A stretch of DNA of 64,000 nt, taken from assembly GCA_002205965.3 (NCBI GenBank), contig NADL03000011.1:620001-684000 (forward strand). Reading direction: 5' to 3'. The notes under the pieces were generated by a model. The model saw nothing but the letters and a program-made list of their open reading frames with translations. It was not told where the DNA came from and made no database searches. Position 1 is the stretch's first letter. Each line of letters opens with the position of its first letter. The position numbers and the translations under genes were made by a program. The DNA is from Kappaphycus alvarezii. Lineage: Eukaryota > Rhodophyta > Florideophyceae > Gigartinales > Solieriaceae. This document shows positions 13,771 to 64,000 of this stretch, piece after piece.

Positions 13771-14719
13771 ACAATATGGACCCAGCTACCCAGAAGATTA
13801 TTGAATTAAAGATTCAACTAGGCGAACTATCAGCTGCATCAGCTGCATCAGTAGAAAATGAAGTATTATAGCGTGGAGGAAAGTCTACCGGCAAATAATA
13901 TTCAATTGATTCTGCAAAATATTTCATTTTATACTGTAGAAGGGTCCGTTTATTCCTAGGGCACAAAGAAGAGACAAATTAAAACTTAGCTGAACGATTT
14001 CATGGAGTAACTTCAGAACATTTCAAATGTTTGGACATGACCTGAAGTAACAAGAGAATGAGCACGTATCTTTGAAACCAATTGATATTGCGGAGGTCAA
14101 AGAAACTAAATATAACAAACTTCTGTCCATACTCAGTAACAAAGCGAGAAAGTCGGTTACTCCGAAGATTAATTAGGAATTAGTTTTAGATTCCGAATCT
14201 AATACTTCTCTCGGACTCATCTTATCATCTATAGCAACACTGTAGATATATTTTGATACTCACGATTGCGAAGAATGGAACTTTTATTTATAGACACTCA
14301 AACATGCTGTAACATTTGAAAAAGAGGCATTGTCGCCACTTGCATCACGCTGCAAAAATTAAAAACCAGATGAAGCCCAGCAGATGAACTTTAACTTAGT
14401 GGATATAATTGATACATCCGAGAATATAGGAAATTTACATGTAGAAACAAAACGAGCCCCATATGAAACACCTCAAAATCTGATATAAAGCTTAACTGAC
14501 AATCAATGATATCGATATATGCGAAAAAACCACTCAATCGATCGGAAAAAAGAAAAATTCAAGCACAGTTTGCGCTGCGAGGCTTTTGTAGCGGAGGGGA
14601 ATCTAGTGCGTGAAAAGCAGCGCGCAATAAATGAAAAGAACTGTCGCTCCAATTTAAAGCGTCAAGAAAACCGGATTAGAATCTTGAGAAGCCGGGCAAT
14701 GTAGAGAAAAATAATCATG

Positions 14720-29030: not shown

Positions 29031-31050
29031 CTATCCTGTGACATTTTCTGCGCCTCTTCTGCTCCAACTCTCGTAAAAACTGACCACTTTCTCATGTGTT
29101 TTCACTCTTAGCATCAAATGTCCTCAATCGTAACTTTTGAATTGAAGTGGCTCTCGACAAAGCAACGTACACTTGTCCGTAATCAAAAGCATTTCCTAAA
29201 TCCGTTTCCACATCTTCCAAGGTCATGCCCTGGGACTTGTGAATTGATAATGCCCAACCCAAAATGAGCGGATCTGAGTGCGAGTAGCGATCACCTGCCC
29301 ATCAATGCCCTTCACTTCCCAAGTCACCGGACCCATCACGCAGTACCTCTTCTTCCCGCTGCTCGCATGCCGATCAAACACCACTACGGGCGATATACAA
29401 TGTAAGCGATCGCAAGGAAGAACAGTTTCCCCAGTATTAATCCCAGCATTTTGTAGAGATAGCTGGATCTCTTCGTGGTCTAACTGCATCACATCTCCTC
29501 GTCCAAATCCAAGCTGTCATACTCCTCAGGGCTGGCCTTCATTCCGCGTCTTCCTCCGTGACAAAGCGTCGGAAAAGGTAAGCACCATCCGACAACTTCC
29601 CCCGCTGCCCCATTACAAATTCCATTTGCTGTATCAATATTTTTCACACACAACACTCGACACCCCGTTTTCAACTCCACCGACGGCAAGCATGTAGTGC
29701 CATTTTCCAGCATCTGCCGTGCAATGCTCACCGTCAGAGTTCCCAAGTTGGACCTCGTAATCTCATCTCGTGCCACATATCTGACGCCTTGATATCTCAA
29801 CTTCCTTAGCTGCGTATCGTTCTCTATTGCTACCTGCTTCCGGAATGAGTACAGTTTTGTAAAATGAACTCTCTCTCCATTCTCATCCGCCTCCTCCCTT
29901 TTTCCATACCCAATCGAGCAAGCATCAATTACTTTTTTCGTCCAACCTGTAACGACCCCTGTCGAATCTCATTCAACAATCCCACAAACTTTCTATCCCC
30001 TTGACGATGAACAACTCTTAGAACAAATGTATTGCGTATAGCTTCTTTCCATGCCTTTGATTCGAAAGCAAAATACTTGATATTACTATCCCGATATCCA
30101 TACTCTGACACCTTTACCGGAGGCAACTGAAAAAAATCACCGCAACAATAACTTGCAAGCCACCAAACGGGACATCACGGTATAACTCTCCCTTCTGAAA
30201 AACGTCAATCCTCCTCCTTTTGTTCCCTTTAGAACTTGCAAGTCCTAACCCGGATCCCTCGCCTCTTTGATAACAGCCTCAATCTTATCAAACAAGAAGC
30301 TGTCAATCATGGACACCTCATCAATGACCAACGTATGCAATTTTGGAACCTCTCTCGCAAGCGATTATCGTTCCTGCCCTTTGCCCTCAACCTTTCAATA
30401 GGATCCAGTCCGATTCCAATGGCAGCCAACGAATGAATGGTACTACCGCCGACACCAACGGCCGCACAGCCGGTGCTCGCCGTGACGGCAACATGCTTCC
30501 CCTGCTGACGCAATTGACGTATGATTTGTTTAAGGACATAGCTTTTACCAGTCCCCGCACTACCGGTAAGGAAGAAGCTCTGGCCTGATAGAGCGGCTGC
30601 CATTGCCTCAGCTTGGTAGGGATCGGCTGGAATTCGGACGGACTGGCCTGCAGTGTGGAGATTTCCTCAGATTTGGATGGTGCTTCGGAAAAGTTCATGG
30701 TGATAAATCGATTGACAGTCGGAGTTGGTACTGGAACGTTGGTTAGTGGATGCAGACGAGGTGGTGTAGTGTTGAGGGTTGGTTTGGCGGAGGGTAGGTT
30801 GCCAGCCGGCGAGGGCACGATCGATGTTGGAGATGATAGTCCGGCGGCGCTGCTGGGCAGCGTGTAGGTCATCGGATTGATTTTTGTTTTGATTAATCAA
30901 GTTAGAAATGTCCTTTAAACTGGGGGAGCCGGGGGGAGGGCCAGTCTGGGTGGCGAGGGCGTAAATTTCAGGGCTTTCGAGGGCACGGAGAAAGTCCTCA
31001 TCTGTGGGTTCGTATGTTGGTTGAGGAGTGGCCGATTGTAACTGGGTCAT
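29031..31050 (-). CDS. PIF1: PIF1-type DNA helicase (frame-broken in this sequence)
   Basis: A superfamily 1B 5'-3' DNA helicase, whose relatives act in telomere, replication-fork and mitochondrial DNA maintenance. A ~150-residue polar N-terminal region opens at ATG 31050. The core follows: Walker A GSAGTGKS (30541-30564), TASTGCAA, a [11 protein letters not shown] motif, Walker [10 protein letters not shown] (about 30304-30330), VIVA-(G)DFFQLPPV (about 30115-30150), a LKTGCRV...KNID...NG...G block (about 29580-29660), [12 protein letters not shown] (about 29230-29265) and YVALSRA. Total about 670 codons. About eight frame changes are required; most equal one missing base, while two (near 30.7-30.8 kb and at the 3' end) have the opposite sense. 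The motifs are intact, so a functional gene with sequence errors is preferred over a pseudogene. A transposon-borne helicase is less likely because no Rep domain is present. Confidence 0.85.
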
Positions 31051-32927: not shown

Positions 32928-35069
32928 TTAATTTTTTCCGCGAGGCTTAACTGACTTTCGCGCATTTGCTCTTACGTCATGCTTCCCACGGCAAGTCTTC
33001 ATAGAATCTAGGTTTGATTCGCGGGCCGGTTGCCCTTTTTTAGCTAGTCGCAAACGTAATCGGTTTCCAGTGAAGTAAGCGAGTGCAGCTCGCCAACACT
33101 CTCTACGACATATCCCCGCTAGAACCAGTTCCAACACTTCATACGACGTTACCATACCATCTGTCGATTCATCCGGTAACTCAGAAGGATGAAGGGAGCT
33201 AGATTTGGATACTCCCGGAGGAACCATGGTCCCGTTCTTTTCCTTCTTCGCAGCCTTGGCCGCTTTCTTGGCCTCTCGCTCAGCTTTCTCCTCCAAACGT
33301 GCAGTTGAAGCCCGCACCTCATCACAAAACTCTCGAAGCATTCTTAAAACGTCTTCTTGTCTCCCTCGAGCCGCTTTATTGCGCTCTCCAAAATGCGCCT
33401 GCATTGACTGCAGTTTGTCCATCATCAGTGCTCTAAGGGACACAATTTCTTCGCGAACTTTGACAGCTTCTTCGGAAAATGCCACCATATCTTCTCTGAA
33501 TTGAGCGAGCATAGGATCGTCACCAATTTGCTTAATTTGCTCCCCAACATTAGTTACACTGTCTAGAAGACTTTGGACATCCTCACCAATCGCATCGAGA
33601 GATATTGTCGCGCTCCTCTCCAGTGTGGGCATGTCATCGATTGGGAGAGCCCATGCCTGATCCTCTGTGCAAAATGCGGACTAGATAGTCTAATAAAGAA
33701 TCACCTTTTGCATCTTTAACAGTGGAGAGCATCGCCAATGCCTCAAGTTTGAACCATGGGCACCACCACGGCCAGTTCCCGAATTGAGAAAGTTTCCGAG
33801 CACAAGGATTGTTTCCAAGACTTTCTTCAGCTTGCTTGAGTTCATAACTTCCACTGGAATCATTGCATACGTATCCATATTCCGAATGACATCCACCGCC
33901 TCTTCATTGAATGTTTTCGCAGCAAGTGCACATATGAGTTTTCCTCGGAGTCCGAAAGAGTTGCTAAATCCATCATATACGCATCAGTCTTGTCGACTTG
34001 GTCTCGAATATTCTGATGTTGCAGTAAAAGCTGCTCTTCCTCAGGGGTCGGACAAATGAGCAAGAGTGCTTGCAATGTCCCAGTGTCAAGCCCCTTGTAT
34101 GTTGGGACTCTACAACATCCTTAATCTCTCCGCAGACATCTTGAGGTTAGCAAGTAAAATGTTAATATTGTGCTTCCTCTTTGTGCCAAACTTCTGGCTT
34201 CGCTTCCTCTGCTTCAACCACAAACTGAGCAGCAACATCCACTCCGAAAGTTCGTCAATTTCGTCCTCGTTCAATTGGACAACGCCTTCCTCCAATGTCG
34301 TCCAAAATGTGCCGTTGAGTAGATTCTTAGGCACTTTTGCCCATGAAGTGGTTTCTTCTTGCGTCCTCGTGCCTCATTATTTTTAGCAGCAAGCGCTCCA
34401 ACAGGGGGCTTCGGAACAGGAGGAGCCGGGATCAATCGCGCCAGGGCCTGCAATACCAGTTGGTGAGGACTTGTCTGAATTTGGACTGCTAGCAAGTCCC
34501 GCTGCCGCTCTCTTTTCAGCAGCAGCCTTTGCCACATCGGCGGCGCTGGGTGAACTTGCGTTACTCCCATCTCCGCCGGGCGCCTCCTTTTCCGCCACCT
34601 GGTCCTCCTCTCCGCTTCCACCGCCGCCACTACCACCTTCCGTTCCCAGTGCCATCTCCCCGCCATTTCCGCTGCCCTCACCACTACCACCCCCATTGCC
34701 CTTTCCTTTCCCACCTTTTCCTTTTCCCCGCCCCCGCCCCCTACCCCGTCGGCATATGCATCGGAATTGATACAAGTTCTCCGTTTTCAGTTTTTGTTCC
34801 TTTGTTCTTCGGGTCTACACCAATCCACGCTGTAATGACATTACCATCCTTATCGACACCGCTACAACCTTCCTTCGACGTCCTCTTCCAAGGGGGCCGA
34901 CTTGCCTTTGCCTAACTGCGTACCGAGCGGGATCGATATAGAACCCAAATTGACCCTTCTCGAAACGAACGAATTCCCCCGCCATTGTCTCAAGCCTCTT
35001 AAGAACATCCGGACCAAGCCTCTCTTCCAAAGTGATGCGAGCATCATCTCTTTTTGCGCGACGAGACAT
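32928..35069 (-). CDS. Formin (FH1-FH2 actin nucleator; frame-broken in this sequence)
   Basis: Formins nucleate and elongate unbranched actin filaments. The ATG at 35069 is the first in its frame after a stop. Order: N-terminal domain (SRRAKRDDARITLEERLG, then a GFYIDPARY block, then a DKDGNVITAWIGVDP-like stretch), a Gly/Lys-rich low-complexity linker (~34740-34620), a very short FH1 (PAPPVPKPP, ~34410-34440), then FH2: LNGTFWTTL, KRKHNINILLANLK, ICPTPEEEQLLLQHQN, the hallmark GNFLNSGTGRGGAHG, KLEALAML, LLDYLVRIL, and the C-terminal helix down to FGERNKAARG. A coiled, Lys/Ala/Glu-rich tail follows. Several one-base frame changes interrupt it. The FH1 has only one short Pro cluster, fewer than usual for profilin recruitment. 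It converges with the BAR-type gene. Confidence 0.85.
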
Positions 35070-36132: not shown

Positions 36133-37676
36133 TCAGTTAGTTGCAATCATAGCGTCCAGTCGTGCAGCAAGAGCACTCAACTGATCTGACACTGCACTAA
36201 TCTTGTTCACCGGTTCCTCATAGTCCAACGCCGTATCCACCTTTCTCGGATTTGCAGCTAACAACGCGCGAACGTTTGCCGCATTCACCAAGTTCTCTGA
36301 CGCCTCAACTGCTTTTTCAAAGTATCAACCTCAACATCCTTCGCTTTCAATTTTGCACTCAAACTCTCTAGTTGCTCTTCAGCCATCGCCTTTTTCTCCG
36401 ACTCCGCGAGCAACTCTTCCAAATCTTTTATCCGCGTTATGGCATTCACTAACTCCGCGGCGACTTGTCAAATTTGGGGAGCTTGTCTGCACTCACCGCC
36501 ACTGCCTTCTTCAAAGTCTCTGTATCCACAGGCTCTTCCTTTTCCCCTGGCGACTCGAGGTGTACTGCTTCTGAAACCACCACTTCCTCCACTGGACCCA
36601 AAGGGACAGGGGATCGTCTTCTCATCTCATTTGGCTCGGCTTCCTTCTCTGCTATCAGTGGCTCCGCATCTAGCGCCTTGGGCACCTCTCCGTGCTCTTC
36701 TCCAACTCTTGTCCTACATCGATCAAGACCCCTTCCACGCCAAGTTCGCATCTGCACCGCCAATGTCCCACAAGAAAACCCTGCCATCCTCACATCCCGA
36801 TACCACCAAACCCCCCTTCTTCGCCACATCTACCGCCAAAACGGTATCACCATGACCCTCCAACACTGTTCCCTCTCCTTTATCCAAATCCCAAACCCTA
36901 ACCGTCGCGTCAGTACTCCCCGACACAGCAGTTCCATCCGCAGTAACTGCGACATCCCAAACTCGATACTCATGTCCTTTCAACACAAAACGCTCCTTCA
37001 TCATGATCAAATCCCACACGCGCACAGTCTTATCACCACCGCAACTCACAACCACAGGCTTCCCGCCCCCTGCCATGTCCACCGCATGAACCCATCCGGT
37101 ATGTCCTTTAAACACATGCACGGCCGTCGACGCCGTGGCACGAACATCCCACAATCGAACCGTGCGATCACGACCTGCAGACGCAACAAGTGTAACCGGC
37201 TGATCGGCGTCTAATGACGCGGCGACGGCAATGTCGCGAACTTCATAGCGATGACCGGCCAGACGTGCGATGGAGTGGCGGGTTTCCGCGTCCCAGACAC
37301 GGACAATTCCATCCTTTCCTGATGTGGCAACTGCACTTGAGGAGGAAATGGCGGCAATGGCAGTAATTCTTCACCTCCATGAGCTGCAGAGACGGTGTAG
37401 GATGGGGAAAGAGAGGGCGTTGTTGTAGAGAGATGTCGAAACGTTTGAAAGAGCCACGAGAATCGGAGTGTAGAGAACTGTGGGAGCGGGAAAGGAGATA
37501 GAAGTGAGGGAAGGGTTTGGGAGAAGGTTTTCAGGGGATGGCAGAGGGAGGGGGGAGTTGGAGAGGGCGGGGAGGGGGATGAGGGAGAGGTTGTGGTGGC
37601 CGGCGGCTGCGGCCAGGTGTGTCGCTGACGGGCTCAGGGAGAGGCAGGGGATGGGGTGGGGGGAGAAGGCAGTCAT
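36133..37676 (-). CDS. WD40-repeat protein with C-terminal coiled coil
   Basis: A beta-propeller scaffold protein. At least five canonical WD repeats are readable: GKDGIVRVWD, GRDRTVRLWDV, GGDKTVRVWDL, STDATVRVWDL and EDGRVFLWDI, each preceded by GH-type turns (LAGHRYEVRDIAV, FKGHTGWVHAVDM, LKGHEYRVWDVAV, LEGHGDTVLAVDV). The N-terminus from 37676 (MTAFSPHPIPCLSLSPSAT) probably forms one or two weaker blades; an alternative in-frame start lies at 37733. After the propeller come an acidic, Pro/Glu-rich linker and a Leu/Glu/Lys coiled coil ending at 36133. Propeller plus terminal coiled coil recalls coronins, but no coronin-specific signature was recognised. About three one-base frame changes interrupt it (near 37375, 36720 and 36330). 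It is divergent from the BED fusion gene (~470 bases between ATGs). Confidence 0.8.
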
Positions 37677-38145: not shown

Positions 38146-40078
38146 ATGTCCCCGCAGCTTCCTCCTGCGGGTCTGCCCGCCTCTCAAAATCCTTCACCCC
38201 CACGTCCCTCCCACATAAAACCCCCCCGCGTTATCATCGAAAACTTCGATCTCTCTACCTACAAAATCGATCTCTCCCAAGGTTACGTCGAAGCCGACTG
38301 CCGTCATTGCGGCCACACCATCAAGGGTCAAAAAAATGTCACCTCAACTTTATCCAACACATGCGCCGTCGTCATCCGCACGCCTATGAGCTCTTCTCCA
38401 AGACCTCCACACCTCGTGCGAAACGCCCGCGACTTTCCAACCCGTTCAAGGCCACGATCCAGAACCAAACCCAAACACCCCATCCTGTCACTTCTGCTGC
38501 CAATCACCCGCCAACTGCCGCCCTTCCTGCTGCATCCCCGCCTTTAAATCATACCCCCTCCGTACCCGCAGCTTCCGCGGCACCCATTGCCGTTCCCATC
38601 GCCCCCGGTGCTAACCCTCAGCCCTCCAAACCTACACCCGTCCAACTCCAACTCAAAACGCTGCTAATCTCACCCCACCTAACATGCTGCTCGAACTTGC
38701 TCTCGTCTCTGCCACATACAGAGCCGCTCTACGCACCCCGTGTACATTTGCCCCTTCTCTTTCTCACCGAACTAGATGTCAATTCTATCTCAAACGTGAG
38801 GATCAGCAAATAACCGGTTCTCCCATCTTCCGTGCCGCTTACAACTACCTTTCTACCATTCCCACTGCCGCAACGGTGTTCTTGCCGTCGGTCCCTCTGC
38901 CTTGCCGGTCGCGCCGCCGCTGAGAAACATGGAAAATCTTGTGTCGTTGTGATCCCGACCAATGCTACTCAGACCGTTAGAAGGTTGTTGAAGTCCTACG
39001 GTGCGAAGATTGAGAATGGTTCAGAAACGTTAGAGGAGTGCATGGCGACAGGAGCGGCGAGGGCTGCGGAAATGCATCGTACTTTTGTCGATGTCGCGTG
39101 TGGAAAGCTCCAGCGTGGAGCAGGAGATGCCGTAGTGGGGTATGCAACACTGGGTATGGAGATGTTGCAGCAGTGCCCACATGTAGGGAGGGTGTTTGTC
39201 AGGGGGGTAATGCGATGCTGGTCAAGGGTGTGGCTGCAGTCTTGGGCAGGTTGGGCAGGGGGGTGAAATTGGTGGGCGTCGTGATGGAGCAGGAGGCGGG
39301 GGGGAGTGGGAGGGTTTGTAGATGAAGTGGTCAGAGTGGGGTGGGGGGAAGTTTGTGCGGCGGTGGGATGGGTGTTTGAGGAGGGCGAGGGTGGGGTGTG
39401 TTGGAATGGGCGGGGTCCTGGCGGTGGCAGGAGCTGTCAAGTATGTCAGGAGGGGGGCGTGACGCATGAGAGAGTGGTTTGCGTGGTAGACGAACCGTGC
39501 CGAAGTTGGGAGGCTGTAGGGAGGATGGGGAGAGCCAGTTGGAAGGGAGATGGGAGCAGGTGTTGGTTGTGGTTGACTGGGAAGAGTGGCCGAGAGGCGG
39601 TCTTGGAGAGTTGATGAAGGAGTTGGCTGGAACAGTAGGAGGCGGTGTGAAAGTGACTGGGTTGAGATGGCGCGGGGATTGGCCTATGCTATTGGGGCTG
39701 AAATGTGATGAGGAGGTGACGGGGGTGATGCATGTGGGAAATCTTATGGCACTGGGCTACGAGGTCGAAGATGTGACTGGGAGGGATTTGGGGGTTGATG
39801 AAATGTGGACCTGGGGAGACGAAAATGAGCAGGGAGCGGAGGGGGCGTGGGCGGTGTTTCGAGTGGAATTGTGGGAAACGACGGATGCGGTGCTGAAGTT
39901 TCTGAGTGAGGAGCGGATTGGAGGGGAGGGAATTGTAAGAAGAGTGTCGTTTACTGAAGGGGAAAGAGGGCTTACGAGGCTATTGGTAGGGGGATGGGGG
40001 GCAGAGTGGCAGTTGGGGGAACTGGAGAGATCAATGAGGGAGGTGGCGAAGGGCGTAAGGAGGATTGACGGGACGTGA
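38146..40078 (+). CDS. BED zinc finger fused to an inactive threonine-deaminase-like protein
   Basis: Residues ~45-85 form a BED finger: CRHCGHTIKGQK, a frame change in the A7 run at 38331-38337, then KCHLNFIQHMRRRHPHAYEL (CxxC...HxxxxH). A basic NLS-like PRAKRPRLS and an Ala/Pro-rich linker follow. From ~38680 the fold-type II PLP region of threonine deaminase appears: a TPPNMLLELALVSATYRAAL helix, YLKREDQQITG, a Rossmann-like CVVVIPTNATQTVRRLLKSY, and GYATLGMEML. The C-terminal regulatory part shows two ACT-like repeats (LGYEVEDVTGRDLGVDEMW; AVFRVELWETTDAVLKFL). The PLP lysine is absent: the SFKxRGA position reads SPIFRAA with Ile. The SxGNHA loop reads GPSALP across uncertain frames. About six one-base frame changes occur. 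The product should not deaminate threonine; a nuclear, possibly amino-acid-sensing DNA-binding role is inferred. The next acidic frame may belong to it. Confidence 0.7.
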
Positions 40079-41068
40079 AAGGTCTGGTGGTACTTGGAAT
40101 AGGAGGACGAAGGAGTCAGGAAACAAGCAATGGCGTTGTGCATATGACCTGCGAAGGAGAGGCGGGGAATGGGGACGGGACTATGGAAGTTGCCGAAGAG
40201 GAAGTAGATGGAGGGGAAGACGGTGGTGTGGATATAGCGATTCGGTTTGGGGAAGCTGAGGCGGGAGAGATGGAAGTGGATGGGGCAGAAAAGAGAGGAG
40301 GGGAGGTGGAGATGGAGGACGACGCGCACATGACGCACGTGGAGGTTGAGGGCGAGCACGGAGGGATTGAGGGGAGGGCAGCAAGTGCATGGTGGTGTGA
40401 GTGGGGAATGCAGTTGAACATCAGCGGACAACGAATAGAGGTGCAGATTGAAGGGCACATGGAGGAGGTGAGGGAGAAGAGGAAGACAGGATTGAGGGAG
40501 AGGAAAGGGAGGTGGATGTCGAAACAGTTGAGAGGCTGAAAAAGTTGAACAACAGGAGTTGGAAGTGGAGGTTGGTGAGGATGGAGAAAGGGAAGGAGAG
40601 GGTGGAGATGGGGTGTAGATGATGGTGATGGTGAGGTTGATGAGGAAGTTGAGGATGTACATGTGGTAGTAGATGAAGGTGGACATATGGAAGAAGAGCA
40701 TCTGGAAGAGGTGGAGGTGGGTGGTGGAGAGGAGGAGATGTGCATGGACATGTGAGGAATGCGAGGAAGTAGATGACGGACATGATTGTGAAGGTCATGA
40801 GGATGGGGGAGGAGATGCAGGGACAGGAGAAGGAGACATGGAGATAGTAGAGGATGAGGAGCTGGAGGTAAGGGCGGATGGGGTTGAGTCAAAGAAAGGT
40901 GAAGCACCTTGTACAGGGTCGGGATCAACTAAGTCAGAGCTGGGTTTGGCACCTGCGTCAGCATTGGCTTCAGTATCGGCGTCGGCGCCCACAGTTGTGG
41001 AATCTGGCTCTGGATCAGTGCCCGCAGAGGCAGGGTGTGGGCAAGAGCAGGGGGTGGGCGGGTGCTGA
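40079..41068 (+). CDS. Acidic Glu/Asp/Gly/Val-rich protein, or acidic tail of the BED fusion
   Basis: Right after the BED fusion stop, the + strand stays coding-like but switches to an acidic, low-complexity product: EMEVDGAEKRGGEVEMEDDA, later HMEEEHLEEVEVGGGEEEM, then a Ser/Ala/Pro/Glu-rich end (frame 40673-41068). Three frames are needed (40075-40539, ~40600-40750, 40673-41068). The first ATG after the BED stop in the first frame is at 40144. No domain is recognised. It is either a separate small gene or, if the stop at 40076-40078 reflects another missing base, a C-terminal acidic region of the BED fusion, where an activation-domain role would make sense. The long minus-strand frames over the same DNA are artefacts of the purine bias. 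Confidence 0.4.
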
Positions 41069-46669: not shown

Positions 46670-49600
46670 GTAAGTACTAGATTGCCTGCGTTAAGCTGAG
46701 ATTTGCACGGTATCTCAGAAACTGGTTCGGTGAAAGCGGCTTGGTCAGGAGGCCAGCCTGTAACTTTGCGGATGGTGTTCGTACGAGCTTTATGTTGCCG
46801 TCCTCCACAGTTTGCTGCGTGTGCTGGTACTTAACTTCGATGTACTTAGAATGCTTTGTAGCGGAGCTGGCCGGTCCAATGGAGATGGACGCTTCATTGT
46901 CAATCTTGTGGAGGATGGTTTTGGGGTTTCCAGGTCTGCGGCCTTCAAGCAGTTATTGTATCCACTTTGTGTGCCGAATTATGTTGATGGCTGCGATGTA
47001 TTCGGCTTCTCAGGTGCTGTTGACTACAGTTCGTATCTTGACTGAGCACCATGATACCAGGTCCCCGGCGTGGTAAAACAGGGAGGCATAGGCGTACTGA
47101 CGGGTATCTGGGCAGGAGGCGTAGTCGGCATCGGATTGCGCTTGGAGCGAATCCGGTCCCGTTCTGTAGAGAAATCCCATGGTGGCCGTATGTTTGAGAT
47201 ATTGTGCCATTTGGTTGAAGTCTTTTCAGTGCCTCATTGTTTGATTAGCTGTGTATATAGCCAGTATACCCGTGATATATTCGAGGCCGGATCTTTTCGA
47301 ATCCAAGAGATACCTCAAAATTCCTCGTATGAAACGCTTTGTGTCCGGGTGTTTCTTCGTGTCCTTGATGGAGGATATAGTGCCCTGATAGGTAGAGAGT
47401 TTTGTACAGCTTTCATTTTTGAAGCGGGAGGCTGTTGATGACCGTCTGTGTGAGACGTGGTTGTGAGATTTGTGGAAGCCTCTTTTGTTGGTCCTGCTGT
47501 ATTGTCCATCCAATGATTTTTGTGGCTGCTTAAAGGTCCTTCACCTCGTACTTTCTGAATGGTGCACGGAGGAGCTGTGTATACATTGTCTCGCTTGTGG
47601 AGGCCGCTGCAAAATAATCTATTGTGACGGCGAGGATGATTTTATGTTCTTCGTGGACACGGACGTGGAAATTGCGGTTGCTTTCGAAAGGACGGTAGCC
47701 ATTCTTTGAGGGAAGCCTGCATGCAATTGTAGAATGTCTTAATTGATTTGGGGTTCCATGTATGTTCTTGACAGCTTGAGCGACCGTGTCCGTGTTTTCC
47801 CTATGTCCATTGAATGGGGGTAGTTTCGCAAGGTAAACGGGTGACTTACCTTCGTATTTTTCATGGATAAATGCATTCTTGAGGTCGATGTGTTTTATAT
47901 TCATGCCGTGCGATGTTGCAATGGATATGAGGAGGCGCATGCTGTCCCTGTCTGCGGTGTGAACCGCCAGCTCAGCAGGATCGAAATGCTTACCAGGTTC
48001 GAGTAGGCGACCAGAGTATTTGATGCGGGCTCTGTGCCCCGAGATATTACCCTGCGCATCATACTTGTGTGTAAAGGTGACAACAGGTTTGTACACTTTC
48101 GCATTTCGCGGCAATTCTAAGTGTATATGGCGGGAAGTGCCATAATGAGTGTATATGCGGACTTCGTTTTAGTATGCACTACGCTAAATGTCGGAATCCA
48201 GACTAATTACTGCCTCTCTTAGATTGTGTGAAGGTGTCATGAGGTAGTCCTCTCGTGATGCCGTGGGTTCTTCTTCACCCGTGAGTCTATTGGCATGTGC
48301 TTGAGACGGTATCACATGTTGCGCATTGGTACGTTGGTGGTGGGTCCCGTGGGGTGGCAAGGTGTGGAAGTGCAATCGTTGGGGGTCGTAGTTCTGATTG
48401 TAAGGTTTGAAATAAGTTACCCTTGTCGTGAACAGTTAAGCGTTGGTTGCATCTATGACACGGTAGTGTTTTAAATCAGGGGCGCTGAGGCAACGCATCA
48501 ATATTGCCCAGGGTAATTGTTGCTTCTGGATTTCAGTCAGTATTGGAATGTGGCCGTATTCCACGAACATCTTGAATTGCTCAAGCGTAAGTGATCTGGT
48601 GGGGGATGTGAATATAGTGTGCGTAGATACTCCCAAAGTCGTCGAGGAATGTATCAGATGGTTCAATCGAGGGTGGCGTTTGTTTTTGTGGCCATTCCAG
48701 TAGGCATTAGGTCCAATATTCAGTGAATGGCATCTTTACCGTGTGCAGTGTTACTCGGACGTGTGATATTAGGGTGCGTTTGAGCCTTTCCGCGAAGTTC
48801 TTCTCGTCTGGCATTTTGGAGTAGTTGCGTCGATGCGTGTGGCTCATGTCCTGTAGTGCTTGGGAGTACCTTGGTATTGTAACCATTGGCATTATCGCAT
48901 CTTATTTTCACGGCGTTATTCCAACTGCGTCACTGTGGTGATGATCTAGAGCTCGGCCTCGTTCCGGTGCTTGAGTAATGAAACAATGCTAATGCGCGTG
49001 TGGAGATCCGAAATGAAGTGAGGTACCTGTGTCCCGCCGCTATAGTATGGAATGGTCCTGCTGTTTCTGTGACAATGGTGTGTCCGAGGGGTGGTCTGGG
49101 AGTATGTAATTTGTAAGGCACATGATGGAACTGTCTGAGTGAGCAGCTTTGACAGTGGTGCGTGTCAGTGGGCTGGGCTAATATCGTTGGTGAGCCGAGT
49201 CGTAGCGATATGTGCGCCATTTGAGTGAGCTCGGCTGGGCAAAATTGTTTGGTCGTAGGTGCCAGTTACGTGCACAGTCTATCTGCTGCCTCCGGTGTGG
49301 TGGTATGTCCGGGAGGTGGTACAGATACGCGAGGTTTGTGTTATTGCGCCTGATTTGGCACCGTGCGGCTTTGGCGGTGTGTGTCGCAGTTGTTTCGTGT
49401 ACATATGTAGTGGCTGTATTTCGAACATATGTTGGGGTCGTGGTACCGTCTCCGGCAGGGTTATTACGCGCGGGACCATGGAAGTTTTGGGTTTGTTGCG
49501 GATGTGCCTGTCCATAGTGTACCGTGGGCTCCGTACATTGAGTGCTTGCATTTGGTGCATTTGCTGAAGTTACAACCTATAGTTGCCGTCAACTACATCT

Positions 49601-62790: not shown

Positions 62791-64000
62791 ATGCAATTCC
62801 GAATCCATCACCGCGCCAGCTACGGCGACCGTCTCGTCCTCCTCGGATCAACCGATGCACTCGGACAATGGGATCCAGACCATGCCTTACCAGCCACCTG
62901 GACATCCGGTGACATTTGGACAGTCTCTGATATTCCACGACCTCGTCTCCACGCCCCCACTCGATTCGAGTTTAAGTTTTGTCTCATTACTGCTTGCGGC
63001 GCCTTGGTATGGGAGCCCGGTGCGAATCATGCCGCACATCTTCCAATACACCCTGCATTGCCCATTGTACTGTCCATGGAATGGGGATCTCATGCTGTTT
63101 TGCATGTCGCCCCGAATCCGGCTCTCAGTCCGTTTTGTACTACGGAGCATGAGGCTATGTTTGTGTCCAGTCCACCGCCCACACCGAGCATGAAGTATGG
63201 TGTTTTGGAGGGTGGGGGGATGGCAATACGTTGGCTATGGCCGTGGAGAGAGTCAAGTTGGATAAGGCAAATGGAGAGGTGGCCAGGCTGCCTGTGGTCT
63301 TTCGCATGGAGTATAGTTTGCGGGAGGGGGATATGTTGTATGTTGGGGGGAGTATTCCAGAGTTGGGGGGTGGAATAAGATGCATAGTCCTATAATGGGC
63401 AGGAGGAAGGCCGGTGGAAACATATTTGAGGTTGCCATGGTGTTACCGAGGGATGAAAAGCATGCCTCCTTTGAATACAAATACTTTGTTCGGAGGAGTG
63501 ATGGGACACGTCGGTGGGAGGGCGGCGAGAATCGCGTTGCGCGTCCGTTTGATGCCGCGGTTTGTAAGGAGGGTGAGGTGATTGTGTGGGATGATCGGTG
63601 GGAGAGGATCAGCGTCGAGTTTAGTATTTATTATCCTACAAAGCCAAGTCAAGTAATGTGTGTCACTGGAGATCCAAAGGAGATTGGCGCATGGTATAAA
63701 CCGGGGCCCACGAAAATGGAGTTGGGAGAGGTTGAGATGCTGGAGACGGACGTCAAGGGCAGAAAGTGGAAGTTGAAGGTATGGATGCCGCCGTCACAGC
63801 CCTCGTTTTCGTATCGTTACATTGTGGTGGATGAGGAGAGCAAGGTAGAATTATGGGAGAGAGAGCCGAATCGACGGTGTGAGTTTGACGAGGAGGATGA
63901 GGAGCCTCTGTTAAACAGCGTGAGGCTGTTGAAGGATGTCAACTTTGTGTCGGGCCTCAACTTTGACGTCGTGCCCCAGATATGTACATTGGCCCGTACC
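62791..64000 (+). CDS. Triple-CBM20 protein, probably a laforin-like glucan phosphatase (5' part)
   Basis: Begins at ATG 62791 and continues past the window. Three CBM20 starch-binding modules follow each other: VLLGSTDALGQWDPDHAL...VWEPGANH (from 62830), MLYVGGSIPELGG then WNKMHSP...EYKYFVRRSDG...WEGGENR (from ~63330), and VMCVTGDPKEIGAWYKPGP...YRYIVVDEESKVELWEREP (from ~63655). Each has the GS/GD...LG-W binding-site signature. After an acidic linker comes VNFVSGLNFDVVP; allowing one missing C at 63974-63977, the next residues read DMYIGPYP, the usual opening of the dual-specificity phosphatase domain of laforin-type enzymes. Laforin removes phosphate from glycogen or starch. Frame changes lie near 63215 and 63370. 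If the phosphatase reading is wrong, a CBM20-containing glucanotransferase or dikinase remains possible. Confidence 0.7.

Follow-up and report, generated by a model that had tools for sequence, protein, structure and literature searches.

A likely fusion of a BED zinc finger with a catalytically degenerate threonine deaminase scaffold in the red alga Kappaphycus alvarezii

Does the red alga Kappaphycus alvarezii carry, within one gene, both a DNA-binding finger and the remains of an enzyme of amino acid biosynthesis, and if so, what might such a protein do? The question is raised by a 64,000-nucleotide stretch of contig NADL03000011.1 (the window), in which a forward-strand reading from an ATG at 38146 passes in order through a BED finger, the basic sequence RAKRPRL, a linker rich in Pro and Ala, a body resembling threonine deaminase, and an acidic tail (Table 1). 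A preliminary description had placed a gene at 38146 to 40078 with a BED finger, a basic stretch, an Ala/Pro linker, and a deaminase-like body; we see the same order on the forward strand, but the 3' limit has to be moved, as the coding frame continues to 41064. To judge from the sequence, the BED part and the deaminase-like part are likely to form one gene. The reading we favor, with slightly better than even confidence, is that this is a functional single gene whose product would be a nuclear regulator made from a retired IlvA enzyme and composed of a BED finger, a dead scaffold, and an acidic tail.

The gene has to be assembled from pieces, and no single open frame on the forward strand of the window covers all of the parts from the BED finger to the body. 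By our own reading, the window copy contains about 10 frame changes between 38146 and 40078 (11 segments up to 40069), and the protein discussed here is a joined reading in which segments are linked across frames with an X at each frame change. The open segments join in order from 38146 to 41064, and substitutions between two genomic copies of the locus hold codon phase to that point; a stop at 40537 to 40539 lies at the end of a segment, and the second copy reads through there. When the assembly (336 Mb in 884 contigs) was searched with the BED peptide, one PALP-like piece, and the ACT-like piece, none of the three matched anything at E values up to 0.001 beyond the locus and its second copy, and at that threshold this is therefore a single gene and not a family.

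Table 1. Features of the inferred gene, in window coordinates
Feature	Position	Strand	Basis or remark
Whole inferred gene	38146..41067	+	ATG to TGA, about 970 residues across frame changes
BED-type zinc finger (CRHCGH...NFIQHMRRRH)	38290..38396	+	Pfam zf-BED
Basic NLS-like stretch RAKRPRL	38412..38435	+	Read straight from the sequence
Pro/Ala-rich linker	38436..38680	+	Composition
Degenerate PALP (type II PLP) region, IlvA type	38690..39453	+	Profile matches, alignments
PLP-lysine position	38825..38827	+	Ile for Lys; SFKLRGA reads SPIFRAA (alignment)
GGGGL phosphate loop position	39206..39220	+	Reads GNAML (alignment)
First ACT-like repeat (probable)	39554..39805	+	IlvA profile, motif alignment, guided model
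Second ACT-like repeat (less certain)	39845..40066	+	Motif alignment, guided model; profile reaches only its start
Acidic C-terminal tail	40072..41064	+	90 D+E versus 24 K+R in 331 letters; beyond the end first reported

The second copy lies on contig C749, where pieces of at least 400 bases follow the same order as in the window over about 50 kb. Window positions 13786 to 64000 and positions 1566501 to 1626000 of that contig are 84 to 97% identical, with divergence uneven between stretches: several flanks differ by about 10% substitutions, versus 1.8% in the candidate gene. The second copy represents either an allele or a duplicated piece of chromosome, and two such uneven copies indicate that the genome is strongly heterozygous or duplicated. 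Because the little-diverged block also takes in apparently non-coding DNA at 35.3 to 36.1 kb, the argument for constraint has to be made from codon phase only.

Between 38146 and 41064 the copies differ by 52 substitutions, 12 of which lay near gaps or were clustered and were left out. The 40 retained fall at first, second, and third codon positions in the numbers 10, 3, and 27, and 26 are synonymous, compared to 27% expected (p 7e-7); up to 40078 alone, 12 of 20 are synonymous (p 0.003). By this measure, the body and tail are constrained coding sequence. The BED finger and linker contain three usable substitutions, one of them synonymous, which are too few to gauge constraint in that part.

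Comparison of the copies also bears on the frame changes. Gap bases between them number 24 from 38146 to 40078 and 43 up to 41064, and as most are single-base gaps that shift the frame in one of the two, they point to sequencing error. By our own reading, both copies have at least five frame changes in common, near 38346, 39202, 39298, 39400, and 39455. Past the change at 39202, however, third positions account for 8 of 12 substitutions (39206 to 40069), and because codon phase persists there, the shared changes are probably assembly errors too, as frame changes at this locus probably are in general.

A control is available in the genome's own threonine deaminase. An intact IlvA with two ACT domains, found elsewhere on contigs C466 and C29, keeps SFKLRGA, SAGNHAQG, and GGGGL and looks like the working enzyme. 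When aligned with E. coli IlvA, its two copies nonetheless carry 4 and 2 frame changes, so that indel errors must be usual in this assembly. One of these changes, just after the second ACT-like core (~4430 and ~4200 in reverse-complement coordinates), is common to both copies; shared frame changes are therefore no proof of a pseudogene, and the observation slightly supports the interpretation as error. Substitutions between the true IlvA copies are distributed 4, 2, and 11 by codon position, with 11 of 17 synonymous, and because the synonymous excess of the candidate matches that of this pair, we read the candidate as a constrained gene with erroneous frame changes. Additional PALP loci on contigs C541, C581, and C556 have a GC content of 0.59 to 0.60 and adjoining frames that look bacterial, and they are possibly bacterial contamination in the assembly.

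The same substitutions decide where the gene ends and which strand is coding. A gene end at 40078 was rejected because the second copy reads on in the same frame and because substitutions in the tail are biased toward third positions (16 of 20, with 14 of 20 synonymous); the stop at 40076 to 40078 is probably an artefact. The acidity of the tail could come in part from GA-rich DNA. A long antisense ORF spans 39760 to 40794, and over this interval the 21 retained substitutions divide as 11, 3, and 7 by antisense codon position versus 4, 2, and 15 by sense position. Given this distribution, the sense strand is the coding one, and the antisense ORF was discarded as a coding frame.

Profile and alignment data place the body with IlvA. 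The PALP family (PF00291) scored 80.8 bits on the joined reading, above its cut-off of 35, and 24.0 and 36.7 bits on the unjoined pieces. The top NCBIfam models for the joined protein are IlvA models (115 and 114.5 bits), and TIGR01124, which has two C-terminal domains, outscored the single-domain TIGR01127 by 114.5 to 63.4 bits, with all scores far below the cut-offs (411 for TIGR01124 and 379 for TIGR01127). When aligned with the algal IlvA by a frameshift-aware method, the candidate matches from 38690 to 39904 with 124 of 387 positions identical, and the catalytic part shares 58 of 195 aligned residues with E. coli IlvA. The hallmarks of the enzyme are absent in these alignments: the PLP lysine (residue 62 in E. 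coli IlvA) and the phosphate-binding glycine loop are missing, and SAGNHAQG reads VGPSALP. With the PLP lysine, SAGNHAQG, and GGGGL all changed, the candidate is, on its residues, a pseudoenzyme and no longer a threonine deaminase. Where a full threonine deaminase scaffold had been proposed, the IlvA-type succession of PALP and ACT parts stands, but the catalytic residues are gone and the PALP fold has lost about 35 residues near 39298, before VDEVV.

The regulatory half is more difficult to recognize. An IlvA profile HMM built from 81 sequences (79 of 80 bacterial loci, E. coli, and the alga) matches the candidate in two ordered stretches of 68.3 and 26.0 bits, the latter spanning the end of PALP, the first ACT, and the start of the second. 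The second half alone gave an E value of 2.5e-8, slightly flattered by the fact that frames in 39299 to 39455 were picked with the help of homology, and no match at E up to 10 was returned for any of 300 shuffles. The ACT pair by itself scored 3.3 bits versus 1.0 for the best of 200 shuffles, and among 197 window frames one scored higher (7.4) and one equally (3.3); in a global profile test it reached a z of 2.0, with 10 of 300 shuffles as good, and stood above all 35 decoys from window ORFs. Pairwise comparison of the region with the E. coli ACT part was dismissed as noise (30, versus 26 to 41 for 15 shuffles and 23 to 40 for 12 random window pieces). For the last 202 amino acids taken alone, Pfam returned nothing with an E value of 1 or below. 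The ACT-like part is thus significant as a continuation of the full IlvA profile and weak alone, and its sequence weakly suggests that two ACT-like repeats are present. Of the two ACT-like regulatory regions claimed earlier, collinearity with the IlvA profile into the second is significant, whereas a profile match of their own was not obtained.

Structure prediction gave a similar picture. A single-sequence AlphaFold model was set aside as too poor (pLDDT 38.9), while a model guided by 20 IlvA rows, which steer the result, contained two beta-alpha-beta-beta-alpha-beta units at a pLDDT of 68.1. In a Foldseek search that those rows likewise steer, the guided model matched five PDB chains at E up to 0.001 with TM-scores of ~0.3. 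Threonine deaminase (8y1j) and the glycine-cleavage repressor (1u8s) supplied two chains each, and the fifth was the regulatory domain from E. coli with isoleucine (9d2r; E 7.7e-4, TM 0.35). The E. coli enzyme has two ACT-like subdomains and is inhibited by isoleucine and activated by valine, according to one study (PMC3901761). In the candidate, TGLRWR stands in place of TEFNYR in the first repeat and RVSF in place of FHYR in the second, and a motif comparison with IlvA found the AKLHxRH linker motif absent. A report on yeast Ilv1 states that Tyr423 and Tyr526 recognise Ile and that the linker residue His480 affects allostery (PMC8904041); we infer that the NYR and HYR motifs contain these two tyrosines. 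As the effector motifs are altered, sensing of isoleucine or valine, as suggested by the preliminary description, is unsupported. It is possible that the ACT-like part senses an effector by way of another ligand or a mode other than the conserved isoleucine motifs.

At the other end of the protein, the zf-BED (PF02892) score depends on where the reading is joined. Profile searches of the joined protein, aimed at the three proposed domain types, placed PALP, gave the finger 18.0 bits (shift in the A-run) or 33.5 bits (shift a few bases later) against a cut-off of 20.6, and returned no match to PF00585 at E up to 1, nor did PF00585 hit the locus in a genome search. The unjoined piece scored 14.7 bits against the same zf-BED cut-off. 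The linker that follows, with its basic part counted in, contains 22 Pro and 18 Ala in 102 letters. Nuclear localisation and DNA binding are putative. Elsewhere in the genome there are 50 zf-BED matches, many equal in score, which are probably a repeated, transposon-borne BED family; in the genome search, the candidate finger peptide did not match this family.

These parts suggest a possible history. An IlvA threonine deaminase would have been duplicated, and the duplicate would have lost its PLP chemistry, been placed behind a BED zinc finger, and acquired an acidic tail. The finger would bind DNA. Threonine deaminase is a tetramer, and the pseudo-deaminase body may serve as an oligomerising scaffold or a partner-binding surface, while the tail might recruit other factors in the manner of acidic activation domains and chromatin proteins, making the whole a putative regulator of transcription or chromatin.

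Other explanations have to be weighed against a functional nuclear regulator. The locus could be a decaying threonine deaminase pseudogene beside a BED fragment, with real frame changes, and the roughly 10 such changes that the window copy shows as far as 40078, together with the lost catalytic motifs, are what a pseudogene would display. Shared changes in particular, at least five in the candidate pair versus one in the true IlvA pair, count against a functional gene. Codon phase is nevertheless kept across and beyond the shared changes, and the true IlvA pair is likewise phase-biased while also carrying frame changes, one of them shared; on the strength of this bias and the matching control, a pseudogene was ruled out as the main reading, and we consider it unlikely. 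We attach equally little weight to a division into two or more genes, a small BED protein plus a deaminase-like and/or acidic protein. The length and low complexity of the linker speak for such a division, as does the scarcity of usable substitutions in the BED finger and linker, yet once the two copies are compared the reading from BED to PALP contains no stop, and the linker is the sole spacing between the parts.

Slightly less probable again is an amino acid sensor-regulator in which isoleucine or valine, bound by the ACT-like part, would adjust DNA binding. Such a protein would be collinear with the regulatory part of IlvA, as the profile indicates, and would resemble 9d2r, as the guided model does, but that model was steered by IlvA rows, and TEFNYR, FHYR, and the linker His are all changed. 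The most far-reaching form of this idea, and one we hold to be similarly doubtful, is that a BED finger captured a whole feedback-regulated enzyme that is now dead and acts as a transcription regulator, with its ACT-like part reading a small molecule, possibly a new one. If true, isoleucine synthesis would have given the alga a metabolite-to-gene switch within a single chain.

Returning to the regulator built on a dead scaffold, its nearest known counterparts each share a part of it. Like the biosynthetic IlvA of E. coli and of the alga itself, the candidate has the order catalytic fold, first ACT, second ACT; unlike them, it has altered catalytic and effector motifs, the deletion in the fold, and an added BED finger and acidic tail. 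Many BED zinc-finger proteins derive from hAT transposases, and with zf-BED proteins the candidate shares C-x2-C ... H-x4-H near the N terminus followed by a basic stretch, but its body is an enzyme scaffold, and no transposase part was seen in it. Enzymes turned regulators are known, as in the case of yeast Gal3, which similarly keeps a catalytic fold after catalysis was lost; the fold is different there, and the candidate carries a fused DNA-binding domain on the polypeptide itself. To our knowledge, few regulators have been characterised in the red-algal lineage.

The preliminary description had held the architecture to be undescribed, and a literature search covering few subscription journals and preprints agreed, finding no paper on a BED zinc finger combined with a threonine dehydratase. 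Searches for a threonine deaminase pseudoenzyme and for zf-BED in red algae found no papers, and one combining BED domain, ACT domain, and transcription gave only papers unrelated by title. Two papers on red algae (PMC8304369, PMC12115072) do not have BED as a whole word in their main text. A DNA-binding finger and a complete, catalytically dead allosteric enzyme in one chain is thus an architecture found in no paper searched, and if DNA binding is real, it would offer a direct test case for an allosteric enzyme scaffold becoming a transcription regulator.

Several pieces of other genes lie in the window. Upstream of the candidate, in the opposite orientation, a WD40 repeat gene piece (36726-37370, reverse strand, 119 bits) seems by our own reading to be broken by frame changes too. 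Also on the reverse strand are pieces of a Pif1 helicase 2B domain (29492-29968, 34.4 bits), a formin FH2 domain (32931-33680, 35.9 bits), and an RVT_2 reverse transcriptase (47533-48168, 51.9 bits) that we take to be of the Copia type, and a CBM_20 starch-binding domain is encoded on the forward strand at 63317-63997 (70.6 bits).
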